A stretch of DNA of 35,808 nucleotides from positions 1 through 35,808 of the forward strand of contig JAGOQU010000001.1 in NCBI GenBank assembly GCA_018063165.1, read 5' to 3'. The DNA comes from Minisyncoccota bacterium. GTDB taxonomy: Bacteria; Patescibacteriota; Minisyncoccia; Phycocordibacterales; UBA5272. A program made the translations under genes and the position numbers. The notes below the pieces were generated by a model. That model searched no databases. It was not told where the DNA came from and was given only the letters and a program-made list of their open reading frames with translations. Below, piece by piece: positions 45 through 27,583 of this stretch. Position 1 is the stretch's first letter; each line of letters opens with the position of its first letter.

Positions 45-650
45 GTGATATACTTTATTGTAAATATGCTCACATTTGAAATTTTATATCTTATCCTTGT
101 TTTATTTGCAATGAGTGTTACTGTTTGGTTGTGTATTTTTGTGGTAAATTCTTTATTTGTTGACGCTCCTTATGTTCCTGTAAGAAGTAAAACAAAACAA
201 GAGATTGTTAAAGCTTTAAAACTATCCTCTGGAAATGTTGTTTATGATCTTGGGTGCGGTGATGCTAGAGTTCTTTTGGAAGCCAATTCTTCCGTAAAAG
301 GTATACGTATGATAGGTATAGAAAAAAATATAAGTGTATTTTTATATGCGAAATGGAAAGTTAGAAACACTCCAATTTCTATAAAATATACTGATTTTAA
401 TGATATATCTCTAGAACAAGCAACACACATATATATGTATTTATTCCCAGAAATAGTAGAAAAAATATTCTTAAAAATAAGAAAAGAATGTTCAAAAGGT
501 GTACGAGTCGTATGTTGTGATTTTTCTTTAAAAGATGTGATTCCTGATGAAGTAATAGAATTAAATGCACATAAAAATCAATTATGTAAAAGATTATATG
601 TGTATATAATTTATTTTTTTTTATTTTTAAGTTGTTGTATATGTAATTGA
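45..650 (+). CDS. Membrane-anchored class I SAM-dependent methyltransferase-like protein
   Basis: The protein begins with one strongly hydrophobic segment (about residues 8-36). A short APYVPV linker follows, then a Rossmann methyltransferase core with the SAM-binding motif VYDLGCGDARVL (residues 66-77) and an acidic IGIEKN strand. This arrangement suggests an enzyme held on the inner face of the membrane; its substrate is unknown. The start is uncertain. GTG 45 gives 201 aa and ATG 66 gives 194 aa. The purine run GGGGGAG at 24-30 sits closest to ATG 35, which opens only a 14-codon frame. The end is odd: after LYVY, where I would expect the core to stop, about 15 hydrophobic and Cys-rich residues follow. 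The gene ends in TGA, a rare stop here. Family assignment is good; function is inferred. Confidence 0.75.
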   Translation: MIYFIVNMLTFEILYLILVLFAMSVTVWLCIFVVNSLFVDAPYVPVRSKTKQEIVKALKLSSGNVVYDLGCGDARVLLEANSSVKGIRMIGIEKNISVFLYAKWKVRNTPISIKYTDFNDISLEQATHIYMYLFPEIVEKIFLKIRKECSKGVRVVCCDFSLKDVIPDEVIELNAHKNQLCKRLYVYIIYFFLFLSCCICN

Positions 651-23415: not shown

Positions 23416-23506
23416 TAGATTTGCTCAAAGAGATGCAAGAAGAAAGTATCAAATGGTTATCTGTGAATCATTTTTTTAACAGTATCCATTTATTTTTTCT
23501 TTGTTG

Positions 23507-23512
23507 TATACT
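23507..23512 (+). promoter_or_regulatory. -10 element of pth, leaderless start
   Basis: TATACT ends 7 bp before ATG 23520. This is the expected position for transcription to start at the ATG itself, and it fixes the start of pth at 23520 rather than further upstream. Confidence 0.65.
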
Positions 23513-23519
23513 AAGAGTC

Positions 23520-24050
23520 ATGATATATACATTTTTCTTGCTTGGAAATCCTGGTGAAAAGTATGCTAGAACTCGTCATAATATAGCGCGTATTTTATTT
23601 TCCTTTATCGATAATGATGTACAAAAAATAGAAGGAGTAGAAATTGTTACACCAAATACTTTTATGAATGAAAGCGGAAAAGCTATTGCGGAGTATATGC
23701 GTTATCACGAAGGAAGAGAGATTGTAATTGTGTACGATGATAAAGATTTAGCATATGGTACATTTCGTATATCACATGATAGAGGTGATGGTGGTCACAA
23801 TGGTGTTAAGAATGTTATTGAATCACTAGGTACAAAAGAATTTATACGTATACGTATTGGTATTGCTCCACATGATACAGATGGTAAAGATATAAAAGCT
23901 CCACACGGAGAAGCTGTTCAGGGTTATGTAATGGGTCAAGTAAGTGAGAAAGAAGAGGAATCACTTCGTATTATATCTAAAGATGTTATTGGTGCTATAA
24001 AAATAATTGTTTCAGATGGGTATCAGAAGGCAATGGAAAGGTATAATTAA
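23520..24050 (+). CDS. pth: Peptidyl-tRNA hydrolase (compact form)
   Basis: Pth recycles peptidyl-tRNA released by stalled ribosomes. The 176-aa protein keeps the catalytic set: LGNPGEKYARTRHNIA with His20, TFMNESG with Asn50, YDDKDL with Asp73/74, and GGHNGVKNVI with Asn94. Bacterial Pth is usually about 185-195 aa. The shortening lies between residues 25 and 44, where the strand pair before the FMN motif is cut down to a short loop, and at the C-terminus. A longer in-frame reading from 23421 is rejected because of the TATACT box directly before ATG 23520. Confidence 0.94.
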   Translation: MIYTFFLLGNPGEKYARTRHNIARILFSFIDNDVQKIEGVEIVTPNTFMNESGKAIAEYMRYHEGREIVIVYDDKDLAYGTFRISHDRGDGGHNGVKNVIESLGTKEFIRIRIGIAPHDTDGKDIKAPHGEAVQGYVMGQVSEKEEESLRIISKDVIGAIKIIVSDGYQKAMERYN

Positions 24051-24074
24051 TTTGCATTATTTATCTACTTATAT

Positions 24075-24797
24075 ATGAATACACATAATTTTAATCAAGA
24101 GATTACTACATTAGAAAAAATGGAAGAATCGTATACAGGTATGGCGCTTGAAATTAAAAAGCTTGAAACCTCTTTAGAGGGTAATGAGTCTGTTCAAAGT
24201 GAGGGTATTGTGTCGTTTGAAAAAAGTATAGAGAGTCTAGGTTTCACATCTTCTTCTCCTGAAACGTATTTAACGTCAGTATCTTCTATGTACGGTTCAA
24301 AGATTATAGTTAGAAGATCAAAAATGGAGCCAGTTTTTTCTGCTATTGAAAACAATACTCCTTTACATATTAGTAAATATGACTCTGAACCTAACGCAGC
24401 TATTCTTGGAAGTGTGGACACTACACATCCTCGAGATTCTAAGATTAGCGGAATAGAAGCGTCTATGACAGGTGGTTTTGATTGGATTGTTCATGGTAAA
24501 GTTGCTTGTGTTTTTGGTTTTTTAACAAATAATTCAGATATTACTATTTCAGAAATACCGAAAGATTCACCTTCACATAAAAAAGAATATTCGAACACTA
24601 TGAAAAGTATAGAAGGGGATCTTAACCCAAAGGATATTTTATTTTTTCTCATACGCACACATAAAGACTTTTATCCAGAAGAGTTATGTGAAGATGATGA
24701 TTTTTATGATATTTTTGATCCTGTTACAAAAAAGAATGTAAAAGTTCGTAAACAATATGTTCTGCGTTTGTATAAAAAAATCCACCAGACACAATAA
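24075..24797 (+). CDS. Uncharacterised 240-aa protein
   Basis: I do not recognise this family. There is no signal peptide or membrane segment. The N-terminal 45 residues are helical and Glu-rich (EITTLEKMEES, EIKKLETSLEG), possibly a coiled coil. The central part has a GGFDWIVHGKVACVFGF strand pair. The C-terminus is acidic then basic (CEDDDFYDIFDP, then KKNVKVRKQYVLRLYKKI). It starts 24 bp after pth and is probably co-transcribed. The last codons overlap a hairpin that serves as the terminator of the convergent zinc-finger gene. Coding status is supported by length, codon pattern and operon position. Confidence 0.75.
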   Translation: MNTHNFNQEITTLEKMEESYTGMALEIKKLETSLEGNESVQSEGIVSFEKSIESLGFTSSSPETYLTSVSSMYGSKIIVRRSKMEPVFSAIENNTPLHISKYDSEPNAAILGSVDTTHPRDSKISGIEASMTGGFDWIVHGKVACVFGFLTNNSDITISEIPKDSPSHKKEYSNTMKSIEGDLNPKDILFFLIRTHKDFYPEELCEDDDFYDIFDPVTKKNVKVRKQYVLRLYKKIHQTQ

Positions 24798-24821
24798 TAA
24801 AAAGTTATGTTGTCTGGTGGA
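24781..24821 (-). terminator. Terminator of the DksA/TraR gene, inside the 3' end of the convergent gene
   Basis: An 11-bp perfect stem (CCACCAGACA type) has a 19-nt loop. On the minus strand it is followed at once by seven T residues, which on the plus strand are the Lys codons of the convergent gene. On the plus strand no T-tract follows, so it is directional. Confidence 0.75.
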
Positions 24822-24833
24822 CTTGAGAGTCTC

Positions 24834-25106
24834 CTAATTAAGTTTTTTTTCAAAAATATTTTGACACAAGATACATCGTTCAGCTTCCGGAATAAGTGTT
24901 AGCCTTTCTTGCGGTATTTTTGTACCGCAATCAATGCACTCACCATATGATCCAGTTCGTAATCTTTCCAGTGCTTTTTTAATGCGAATAATGTCATCTT
25001 TGCTGTGAGAGAGTGATTGCTCTCCTCCTTCACGTAATATATTTTTTTTATGAGACATTCTTCCTTCAAGATGTGATTTTACTCGTATATCATCTTTATT
25101 TCCCAT
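24834..25106 (-). CDS. DksA/TraR-family C4 zinc-finger protein
   Basis: This 90-aa protein has a helical N-terminus (residues 30-52) and a C-terminal four-cysteine zinc finger, CIDC near 57-60 and CILC near 78-81, with the family's GSYGECIDCG and IPxERL patterns. DksA/TraR proteins enter the RNA polymerase secondary channel. The DxxDA tip of DksA is not evident, so the effect on transcription may differ. An AAGGA site 8 nt before the ATG supports the start. The promoter combines TTGACA from the adjacent insertion-sequence tip with a TATAAT in the flanking DNA. Confidence 0.9.
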   Translation of the reverse strand: MGNKDDIRVKSHLEGRMSHKKNILREGGEQSLSHSKDDIIRIKKALERLRTGSYGECIDCGTKIPQERLTLIPEAERCILCQNIFEKKLN

Positions 25107-25153
25107 GACGGAAATCCTTTCATATTATATGAATAACTTAAGATAGGGTACCT

Positions 25154-25182
25154 ATTATATCATATTTATATTGATATGTCAA
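25154..25182 (-). promoter_or_regulatory. Hybrid promoter of the DksA/TraR gene using the IS tip
   Basis: On the minus strand TTGACA (25182-25177) and TATAAT (25159-25154) are separated by exactly 17 bp, a consensus sigma-70 promoter. The -35 lies in the terminal inverted repeat of the insertion sequence and the -10 in the flanking DNA. The leader is about 40 nt and includes an AAGGA ribosome site. Confidence 0.8.
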
Positions 25183-26134
25183 TATGTCCCGTATTAGAGT
25201 CAACACCTATGCATCACTTAGCATCTCTTCTGGTGTCTTGTAATTGATTCCCATGTGTATTCTTTTGGTATTGTAATGGTGTAGATATGTTTCTAAATCT
25301 TTCTGAATGTGAATAGATAGATTATGTTTCTCTGGTTCTTCTTGTAATGTTCTATTGAATCGTTCAAGATGCCCGTTCTCATTTGGTGAGCGTGGGTGAT
25401 TATGCCTATGTTTAATCTTGCAGTGGTCCGTAAACCACTTTCCAAACTCAGGACCGTTATCAGTTTGTATGCATCTAATATTAAATTGAAAGTATGCCTG
25501 TACTCTCTTTAAAAAATGAAGAGTATTGTGTGTGTTTGCTTTCTTATACCATCTTGCATATCCATATCTAGAATACACATCTATTGCAGTATAGATGTAT
25601 GTTTTAATACCATCCTTGTCTATGAAGTGAACAGTATCAAATTCAACTAAATCTCCTTGCTTTGCAATATCAGGACGTAGTGGGTAAATCCTTTTCTTTT
25701 TCCATGGAGATCTCTTCTTAAGGCAAGAATATCGAGTAAGTGTTCGTTTAACTGTAGAAAGTGAAACTTCTACACCACGTTTCTTGAGAATGTGATACAC
25801 AACCTCAGAACATCGTTTTGTTTCTTCTCTTACACCAACGATCATTGCTTCAATCTCTTTAGAAGTTCTCCTTGGACTAGTCTTTGGTCTAGAACTTTTT
25901 GTAGGTATACCACTCTTGTTATGCCATACTTCGTTTTTTCTTTTACACCATCTGACGATTGTAGATTGATTGTATCCAAAATGCCTTGCAACTTCTCTGG
26001 TACTTTTACCATTAAGTACCATTCTTACTGCAAGAAGTCTTACTTTCCCAATATTTTCATTTGATGTATATGCCATGATCATACTCTAGCAGAAGGGTGA
26101 TGCAAAGGTATTGAACCATAACGTGTCCTTGACA
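25177..26134 (-). mobile_element. IS481-like insertion sequence, about 958 bp
   Basis: A single DDE transposase gene is flanked by imperfect terminal inverted repeats of about 38-41 bp. Both tips read TGTCAA inward, and both arms share the nearly identical inner block CAACACCTATGCATCAC / CAATACCTTTGCATCAC. The outer ATA bases also match, so the true ends could be 2 bp further out. I see no clear target-site duplication. The element looks intact. Its tips read TTGACA outward on both sides. Confidence 0.75.
25207..26076 (-). CDS. IS481-family-like DDE transposase
   Basis: The protein has 289 aa from ATG 26076 (ATG 26082 adds two residues). An N-terminal helix-turn-helix (STREVARHFGYNQSTIVRWCKR) is followed by a second HTH-like region and an RNase H-fold integrase core. 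The catalytic residues are Asp in VEFDTVH (near 147), Asp in QTDNGPEF (near 206) and Glu in NENGHLERFNRTL (near 238). The C-terminus YNTKRIHMGINYKTPEEML is the usual 'R-H-x-L...TP' end of rve transposases. All three acidic residues are present and the frame is open, so it is probably functional. It belongs to the insertion sequence at 25177-26134. Confidence 0.93.
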   Translation of the reverse strand: MAYTSNENIGKVRLLAVRMVLNGKSTREVARHFGYNQSTIVRWCKRKNEVWHNKSGIPTKSSRPKTSPRRTSKEIEAMIVGVREETKRCSEVVYHILKKRGVEVSLSTVKRTLTRYSCLKKRSPWKKKRIYPLRPDIAKQGDLVEFDTVHFIDKDGIKTYIYTAIDVYSRYGYARWYKKANTHNTLHFLKRVQAYFQFNIRCIQTDNGPEFGKWFTDHCKIKHRHNHPRSPNENGHLERFNRTLQEEPEKHNLSIHIQKDLETYLHHYNTKRIHMGINYKTPEEMLSDA

Positions 26135-26157
26135 TATACTATTTTAAATTATAGTAT
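26129..26157 (+). promoter_or_regulatory. Hybrid promoter at the right IS tip
   Basis: TTGACA (26129-26134), the last six bases of the insertion sequence, is separated by exactly 17 bp from TAGTAT (26152-26157) in the flanking DNA. It would drive the small gene at 26215 with a leader of about 50 nt. Confidence 0.65.
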
Positions 26158-26214
26158 AAAATACTACTTTAATATACGTTCTTTAGAAAATTATTTACCT
26201 TAGAAAGGGTGCAT

Positions 26215-26415
26215 ATGGAATATCCAAAAACACAATTGCTTAAAAAGGCAGAAAGTGTTTTGAGAAGATTTGGTATTTCTGATATTCCTCAGAGGATAGA
26301 TCAGACACCATATTTTGTGTCAAAATATGAAGATAGGTTTTTTTCAGAACTCTCGTCTTTTGTTTTTTATGGTAGAACCTATAAAGTAGGGGAGAAAGTT
26401 AAAGAGAAAGTCTAA
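26215..26415 (+). CDS. Small uncharacterised protein (66 aa)
   Basis: The protein starts MEYPKTQLLKKAESVLRRFG and ends KVGEKVKEKV. It is basic, without membrane segment or known motif. An AGAAAGGG Shine-Dalgarno lies about 6 nt before ATG 26215; a GTG at 26209 is in frame but too close to that site. It is followed by a good terminator. The gene lies between an insertion sequence and ribosomal protein S1 and may depend on the IS-derived promoter. Function unknown. Confidence 0.65.
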   Translation: MEYPKTQLLKKAESVLRRFGISDIPQRIDQTPYFVSKYEDRFFSELSSFVFYGRTYKVGEKVKEKV

Positions 26416-26441
26416 TATATATAATGCATTAAAAATGTATT

Positions 26442-26473
26442 AAAAAAGTGAAGTCGTAAGACTTCACTTTTTT
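26442..26473. terminator. Bidirectional terminator between the 66-aa gene and S1
   Basis: A perfect 14-bp stem (AAAAAAGTGAAGTC type) with loop GTAA has U-runs on both strands. It can end the small plus-strand gene and the minus-strand S1 gene. Confidence 0.93.
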
Positions 26474-26497
26474 GCATTCTATAAATAGAAAATAAAA

Positions 26498-27583
26498 TTA
26501 CTTTTCAGCTTTTTTGATATCTCCGTACGCAAGTGTCATTCTTTCGTCGTTTGCATCAAAGAGAGTAATAGAAAAGTTGTAACTCTTTCCAAGTGATAAT
26601 GCTGCACGAAGCTTTGTCTCATCACCGAAATCAGATACATGGACAAGTCCAGCAACACCTTCTTCGATAGATACAAGTGCTCCGTGTTTATTAAACTTAA
26701 TAACAACACCAGCAACTTCGTCTCCTTTTTTATATTTCTTTGAAGCTTCTTTCCATGGATTTGCTTTAAGAGCTTTTAATGAAAGAGAAATTTTACCATC
26801 TTTTATTTCGATGATCTTTGCTTTTACTTTTTCACCAACACGAGCATATGCTTTAGTGTCTTCTACAAGACCCCAATCAATCTCACTCTTGTGAACAAGT
26901 CCTTCAACACCATCTTCGAGTTTAATGAAAATACCAAATTCTACAACACCAGTAACAGTACCGTCTACCTCATCACCAACTAAGTGACTACCTGATGCCA
27001 TTTCTTTTGTTTCTTTTGTTCCACCATCTTTTTCTGAGAAGATAAGTTTACCTTCTTTTGGAATAGCAGAAATAATACTTACAGAAACACGCTTTCCGAT
27101 AAGTTTCTTGAGTTCGCGAAGTATTTTATCTTTATCTCCGTCTTCAATACGTGGATAGTTTTCTTCTTTAAGCTGTGATGCAGGAAGGAATCCTGACATA
27201 CCTTGCCATTCAATAATAAGACCACCCTTGTTAGCATCTTTAACAACAAGATCCATAACACGTTTTTCTTTGATGGCTTGTTCTGCATCGTTCCACATAA
27301 GCGCTTGACGAGCTTCCTTAAGAGAAAGTTCTACATAGCCTTCTGTGTTTTCACGGAGAACTATTTTTGCTGAAATAGTATCACCAATATTAATACGCTT
27401 GATAACATCACGTGCATTCATGAATTCGATACCATAAATGATACCTGTTCCTGAAACACCTAAATCAACATAAAGCGCTGCCTTTTCAATAGCAACGACG
27501 ATACCTTCTACGATGTCTTCTTCTTTAAATAATACTGCGTCAACTGCAAATGGTGCAATTGCTTGAGCTTCTGTTGTTGTCAT
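26498..27583 (-). CDS. rpsA: Ribosomal protein bS1 (four S1 domains)
   Basis: bS1 unfolds and delivers mRNA to the 30S subunit. The 361-aa protein has four S1/OB-fold repeats starting near residues 22, 105, 190 and 275. The third and fourth are the most canonical (GTVTGVVEFGIFIKLEDGVEGLVHKSEI and VVIKFNKHGALVSIEEGVAGLVHVSDF). The second is diverged, as in other bacterial S1 proteins. Four repeats place it with the short Gram-positive-like S1 forms rather than the six-domain form. ATG 27583 is used: the in-frame extension upstream would lie in the leader hairpin. No Shine-Dalgarno precedes it, and a GC-rich folded leader of about 115 nt does. Confidence 0.95.
   Translation of the reverse strand: MTTTEAQAIAPFAVDAVLFKEEDIVEGIVVAIEKAALYVDLGVSGTGIIYGIEFMNARDVIKRINIGDTISAKIVLRENTEGYVELSLKEARQALMWNDAEQAIKEKRVMDLVVKDANKGGLIIEWQGMSGFLPASQLKEENYPRIEDGDKDKILRELKKLIGKRVSVSIISAIPKEGKLIFSEKDGGTKETKEMASGSHLVGDEVDGTVTGVVEFGIFIKLEDGVEGLVHKSEIDWGLVEDTKAYARVGEKVKAKIIEIKDGKISLSLKALKANPWKEASKKYKKGDEVAGVVIKFNKHGALVSIEEGVAGLVHVSDFGDETKLRAALSLGKSYNFSITLFDANDERMTLAYGDIKKAEK

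Follow-up and report, generated by a model that had tools for sequence, protein, structure and literature searches.

The element and its setting

The window, i.e. the whole stretch of DNA that was analysed (35,808 nucleotides of contig JAGOQU010000001.1 from a Minisyncoccota bacterium), is part of an 843-kb genome, and its relatives assign it to the Patescibacteria. Within it, an open reading frame for an IS481-like transposase sits between two outward-facing promoter-like pairs of hexamers, as an earlier note on this DNA had described. The minus-strand pair, TTGACA-17-TATAAT (25182 to 25154), matches the consensus at 12 of 12 positions and has a TG before the -10 box, and the plus-strand pair, TTGACA-17-TAGTAT (26129 to 26157), matches at 10 of 12; the spacing is exactly 17 bp in both. 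The exact pattern TTGACA-N16–18-TATAAT occurs once in the window, against 0.09 occurrences expected by chance.

No further copy of the element was found in the window's own genome, and its ends were therefore set from relatives. A scan of public genomes gave 34 such loci, 27 of them close relatives and mostly labelled as Patescibacteria lineages. The termini common to the relatives (CGTWATGKTTCAATA… and …TATTGAYTNNNNWACG) are of the CGT…ACG type. The features of the locus are as follows (coordinates, strand, feature and basis).

24834–25106, minus strand: 90-aa protein with a DksA/TraR C4 zinc finger (Pfam PF01258, 2.7e-10; under all NCBIfam cut-offs)
25154–25159, minus strand: host -10 box TATAAT of the divergent promoter, 17 bp from the -35 box and TG-extended (sequence)
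25177–25182, minus strand: host -35 box TTGACA of the divergent promoter, that of the DksA/TraR-family gene (sequence; outside the duplication)
25185–25189, no strand: target-site duplication TGTCC, left copy (perfect direct repeat beyond the tips)
25190–26123, minus strand (that of the transposase): IS481-like insertion sequence of 934 bp, CGT…ACG (relatives' ends and TGTCC direct repeat)
25190–25217, plus strand: terminal inverted repeat at the transposase-stop (3′) end (match to the family 3′ tip; inverted repeat)
25207–26082, minus strand: intact transposase of 291 aa with HTH and rve/DDE domains, D149, D208 and E240 (Pfam, NCBIfam and alignment)
26097–26123, plus strand: terminal inverted repeat at the transposase-start (5′) end (match to the family 5′ tip; inverted repeat)
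26124–26128, no strand: target-site duplication TGTCC, right copy, with the -35 box directly beside it (perfect direct repeat beyond the tips)
26129–26134, plus strand: host -35 box TTGACA of the targeted promoter, that of the 66-aa gene (sequence; family rule)
26152–26157, plus strand: host -10 box TAGTAT of the targeted promoter, 17 bp from the -35 box (sequence)
26215–26415, plus strand: 66-aa gene, read from the targeted promoter (open reading frame; a GTG start at 26209 is also possible)

The right TTGACA begins directly past its TGTCC copy and the left TTGACA lies 2 bp (TA) from the other. Both boxes are thus outside the target duplication and belong to the host DNA rather than to the element. 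The earlier note had taken the two TTGACA sequences for the tips of the element, which would supply outward -35 boxes to both neighbours; this does not agree with the CGT…ACG ends or with the position of the TGTCC repeats. With both boxes outside the duplication, both promoters should predate the insertion, which also removes the ground for the suggestion that the element placed a DksA/TraR regulator under a new strong promoter. A -35 box beside an insertion sequence is not attributable to that sequence unless the target duplication has been located.

The transposase

The transposase consists of N-terminal helix-turn-helix domains followed by an RNase-H-fold DDE domain. Its matches to the Pfam rve and HTH (HTH_23) models are above cut-off, and its best NCBIfam match is the IS481 model NF033577 (E = 1.3e-58), with a score of 198.8 bits that lies below the cut-off of 224. 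The predicted fold is nearest to IstA (IS21) and the retroviral integrases, with the domain arrangement uncertain given the quality of the model (pLDDT 80, pTM 0.61). No obvious extra targeting domain was found by domain search or in the predicted structure. The distance from the second catalytic residue to the third varies in the family: it is 31 residues in the window (208–240) and in several relatives and 34 in others.

TGT…ACA termini are usual in IS481. They have also been reported for the related IS481EU, in contrast to the CGT…ACG termini found here. The element resembles the IS481 family in its best transposase model, its short length with terminal inverted repeats and its 5–6 bp duplications, those of the family being mostly 6 bp with a range of 2–15 (PMC10045372), and differs from it in its termini and in a transposase that scores under the curated cut-off. 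For these last two reasons it is called IS481-like here and is not filed as a strict member of IS481.

A -35 box beyond the target duplication

Further whole-genome searches enlarged the set for comparison to 55 distinct copies, each with a 5′ tip that could be read and flanking DNA of 60 bp or more; nearly all of the sequences are metagenome assemblies. Viral contigs yielded no copy, whether by protein or by tip pattern. One family member (L079) is on a contig labelled Bacteroidetes, either by transfer out of the Patescibacteria or because the contig is mis-binned.

Target duplications 4 bp or longer were recognized in 31 of the 55 copies (16 of 5 bp, 14 of 6 bp and one of 4 bp). Read outward from the transposase-start end, the bases just past the duplication are TTGACA (12 copies), TTGACG (5), TTGACT (4) or near variants. 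Directly beyond the duplication, 27 of these 31 copies match TTGACA at five or more of six positions and 30 at four or more; position 5 of the target box is C in 25 of the 31. Across all copies, a -35 box of at least 5/6 is found 4–7 bp from the 5′ tip in 45 of 55, compared with a chance rate of 2.2% when the same test is applied to other DNA of these loci. Copies without a recognizable -35 box include L071, which has a clear duplication, and L131, L137 and L140.

The rule was written down after the first relatives had been read and ahead of the later searches. Extra genome searches for a fresh held-out set, which hit small groups, gave no new copies, and the held-out test thus comprises the 33 copies first read after the rule had been noted. 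Among these, a -35 box of at least 5/6 is present in 27 of 33, and those with a duplication match at 4/6 or better in 21 of 21 cases; a -10 box of at least 5/6 accompanies 13 of the 27.

At the transposase-stop end, by contrast, only three of 49 copies have a -35 box of at least 5/6, that of the window alone being a 6/6 match, and the position-wise information of the flank is near zero. The two boxes of the window are hence of different standing: the right box is an instance of the family-wide rule, while the left box, specific to this copy, is best read as part of the host layout given its rarity at that end.

Most copies lie between genes, with the promoter downstream of them left whole, as would be expected had the elements inserted at random and selection in compact genomes then spared genes and promoters. 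That account, however, predicts a spread over intergenic DNA in both orientations; abutment on a -35-like sequence in 30 of 31 copies, at one end only, is a base-exact and one-orientation position that effectively refutes it, and we give it next to no weight.

The -10 box, its spacing and the genes downstream

Among the 45 copies with a -35 box of at least 5/6, 23 also have a -10 hexamer of at least 5/6 at 16–18 bp from it. The signal has a sharp maximum at a spacing of 17 bp, with 19 copies against none to five at any other spacing, and the TG of an extended -10 box is present in 23 of the 45. About half of the copies lack a -10 box of at least 5/6, and the -10 box on the targeted side of the window itself matches at only 4/6.

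Control sites show far fewer -10 boxes. They accompany 81 (3.5%) of the 2310 TTGACA-like sites from these loci, 6.8% of 352 intergenic TTGACA-like sites and, in a control for promoter position (intergenic sites directed towards a start codon 35–150 bp downstream), eight of 94 (8.5%; Fisher p ∼6e-8). The adjacent gene usually points away from the element and in most cases starts 37–120 bp from the -35 box; in L072 and L135, for example, a -35 box, a -10 box, a ribosome-binding site and a start codon follow one another in that order.

These controls bear on an explanation in which RNA polymerase has no part: the transposase itself would read TTGAC DNA resembling its own ends, and promoters would be hit for containing the box. 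The ends of the element do carry, reading outward and 8–14 bp inside the tips, TTGAAC (33 of 55 copies) and TTGATT (27 copies), which makes a TTGA-reading domain plausible, and the lack of any visible extra targeting domain in the transposase points the same way. Set against this are the enrichment of the -10 box at 17 bp, well above all TTGACA-like controls including those in promoter position, and the base at position 5, which in the targets is C, as in the σ70 -35 box, and in the element's ends is A or T. Both observations favour recognition of a promoter over reading of TTGA, and we consider an explanation by the transposase's reading of TTGAC alone possible but rather unlikely. A variant in which the transposase directly reads both hexamers is conceivable. 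In the preferred reading, the -35 box abutting the duplication and the enrichment of -10 boxes give strong support, at the level of the family, to the suspicion of the earlier note that such sites are selected by the element.

Host origin of the box

Two copies from one genome, L101 and L153, are 92% identical and have different duplications and different boxes (TTGACG and TTGTCA), from which it follows that the box does not belong to the element. This bears on the further possibility that the tips carry -35 boxes and form hybrid promoters with host -10 boxes. The spacings in the window would be right for such promoters, which are known for many insertion sequences (PMC9330008), and two Bacillota IS481-like elements, L086 and L088, seem to have TTGACA inside one tip (TGTTCATTTGTCAATGATGTGAGACC), a true outward -35 box. 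In the present family, the boxes instead lie beyond the target duplication, differ between near-identical copies and are missing from the other end, so that hybrid promoters of this kind are most improbable here. As in the fusion promoters of the IS911 type, a -35 box adjoining the element is paired with a host -10 box; unlike in those promoters, in which the -35 box is inside the element (PMC9330008), the box here is that of the host and lies beyond the duplication.

The comparison with relatives free of the element, also put forward in the earlier note, was possible at one locus and not at that of the window. At L124, TTGAGT-16-TATATT lies beside the element; in two sister species that lack the element, TTGATT and TTGAAG-16-TATCGT, as read by eye, lie at approximately the same distance from the orthologous start codon. 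With genes only 42–51% identical, this is modest evidence. An empty site of the window locus was not found among the nine genus members fetched, in which the interval between the genes for peptidyl-tRNA hydrolase and S1 has other genes or none. The DksA/TraR-family gene had no match in 15 other genus genomes searched, and one genus member (G015) has, at the corresponding locus, a weak homologue of the 66-aa gene. When positions 23421–26498 of the window are compared with L157–L165, the flanking genes are syntenic and the interval (about 0.1–1.3 kb) is variable across the genus, with different accessory genes, for example for kinase-like proteins, or none.

Joining the flanks of the window gives ATATGTCAA-TATGTCC-TTGACATAT as the inferred empty site, in which 7 bp separate the -35 boxes of two divergent promoters. 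By the family rule, the targeted promoter is that of the 66-aa gene and the promoter of the DksA/TraR-family gene is its divergent neighbour. The element would thus have inserted between two divergent -35 boxes, leaving both intact and increasing their separation from 7 bp to about 950 bp. The joined segments 25168–25182 and 26129–26137 also contain a 9-bp perfect inverted repeat (ATATGTCAA-N7-TTGACATAT) that covers both -35 boxes and could be the binding site of a regulator, now split by the element.

Possible mechanism and comparison with known systems

We consider it highly probable that these copies form an IS481-like family of the Patescibacteria whose members insert immediately upstream of σ70-type promoters and always in the same orientation. 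The 5–6 bp target duplication would abut the host -35 hexamer at the transposase-start end, and a -10 hexamer, in many cases an extended one (TGn), would lie about 17 bp beyond the -35 box. The target would be chosen because it is a promoter, and the most likely route may be a contact of the transposase with RNA polymerase or its sigma factor on the -35 box. Targeting through such a contact would keep the host promoter usable and the cost to the host therefore low. A more specific proposal, to which we give even chances, is that the transposase recognizes the RNA polymerase holoenzyme, through sigma region 4, where it occupies the -35 box, and integrates at the upstream border of that box. The family would then be a bacterial parallel to Ty3 and the first known among bacterial transposons to be guided by the transcription machinery. 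Promoter targeting may extend to a wider Patescibacterial IS481-like group, some members of which have other tips (L113, L116, L150, L152).

The Ty3 and Ty1 retrotransposons of yeast are guided by RNA polymerase III factors. They share with the present family an integrase-type enzyme and insertion at a fixed distance from a place where the transcription machinery binds; they are, however, eukaryotic retroelements for which guiding by a bound factor is established, whereas here it is only inferred. Insertion sequences that seek out particular sites are known for dif, attC and REP targets. Elements of the ISAjo2 type (IS1202 family) target dif/pdif sites, inserting 5 bp from the XerC site in one orientation, and a contact with bound XerC has been proposed by the authors (PMC10132070). 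The family described here resembles them in being a DDE insertion sequence with a 5-bp target duplication and one orientation that operates without an extra targeting protein, and in lying at a fixed short distance from a protein-binding site, the -35 box taking the place of the XerC site. It differs in its target (a promoter rather than dif), in its ends (CGT rather than TGT), in its hosts (Patescibacteria rather than Acinetobacter) and in the length of its transposase (291 aa in the window and ∼290 in the family, against 441–457 aa in ISAjo2/IS1202). Promoter targeting is not described for the IS481 family in the papers found, and no earlier report of a promoter-targeting bacterial insertion sequence was found in the literature searched, which excluded ISfinder and most subscription papers.

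The results suggest that a small element of ultra-small bacteria, the Patescibacteria, finds its landing sites by recognizing promoters. If so, each copy would mark a promoter to the base in uncultured Patescibacteria, in which transcription is hard to study, and the family, with its single protein, would be a simple model in which to test how a transposase locates the transcription machinery.

Several distant IS481-like transposases (L113, L116, L150, L152, L118 and L008) also adjoin -35 boxes, some of them with different tips. At L113, the duplication GCAACA is followed by TTGATT-16-TAAAGT; at L116, CGCTC is followed by TTGACA-16-TATAAT at the transposase-stop end, i.e. in the opposite orientation.
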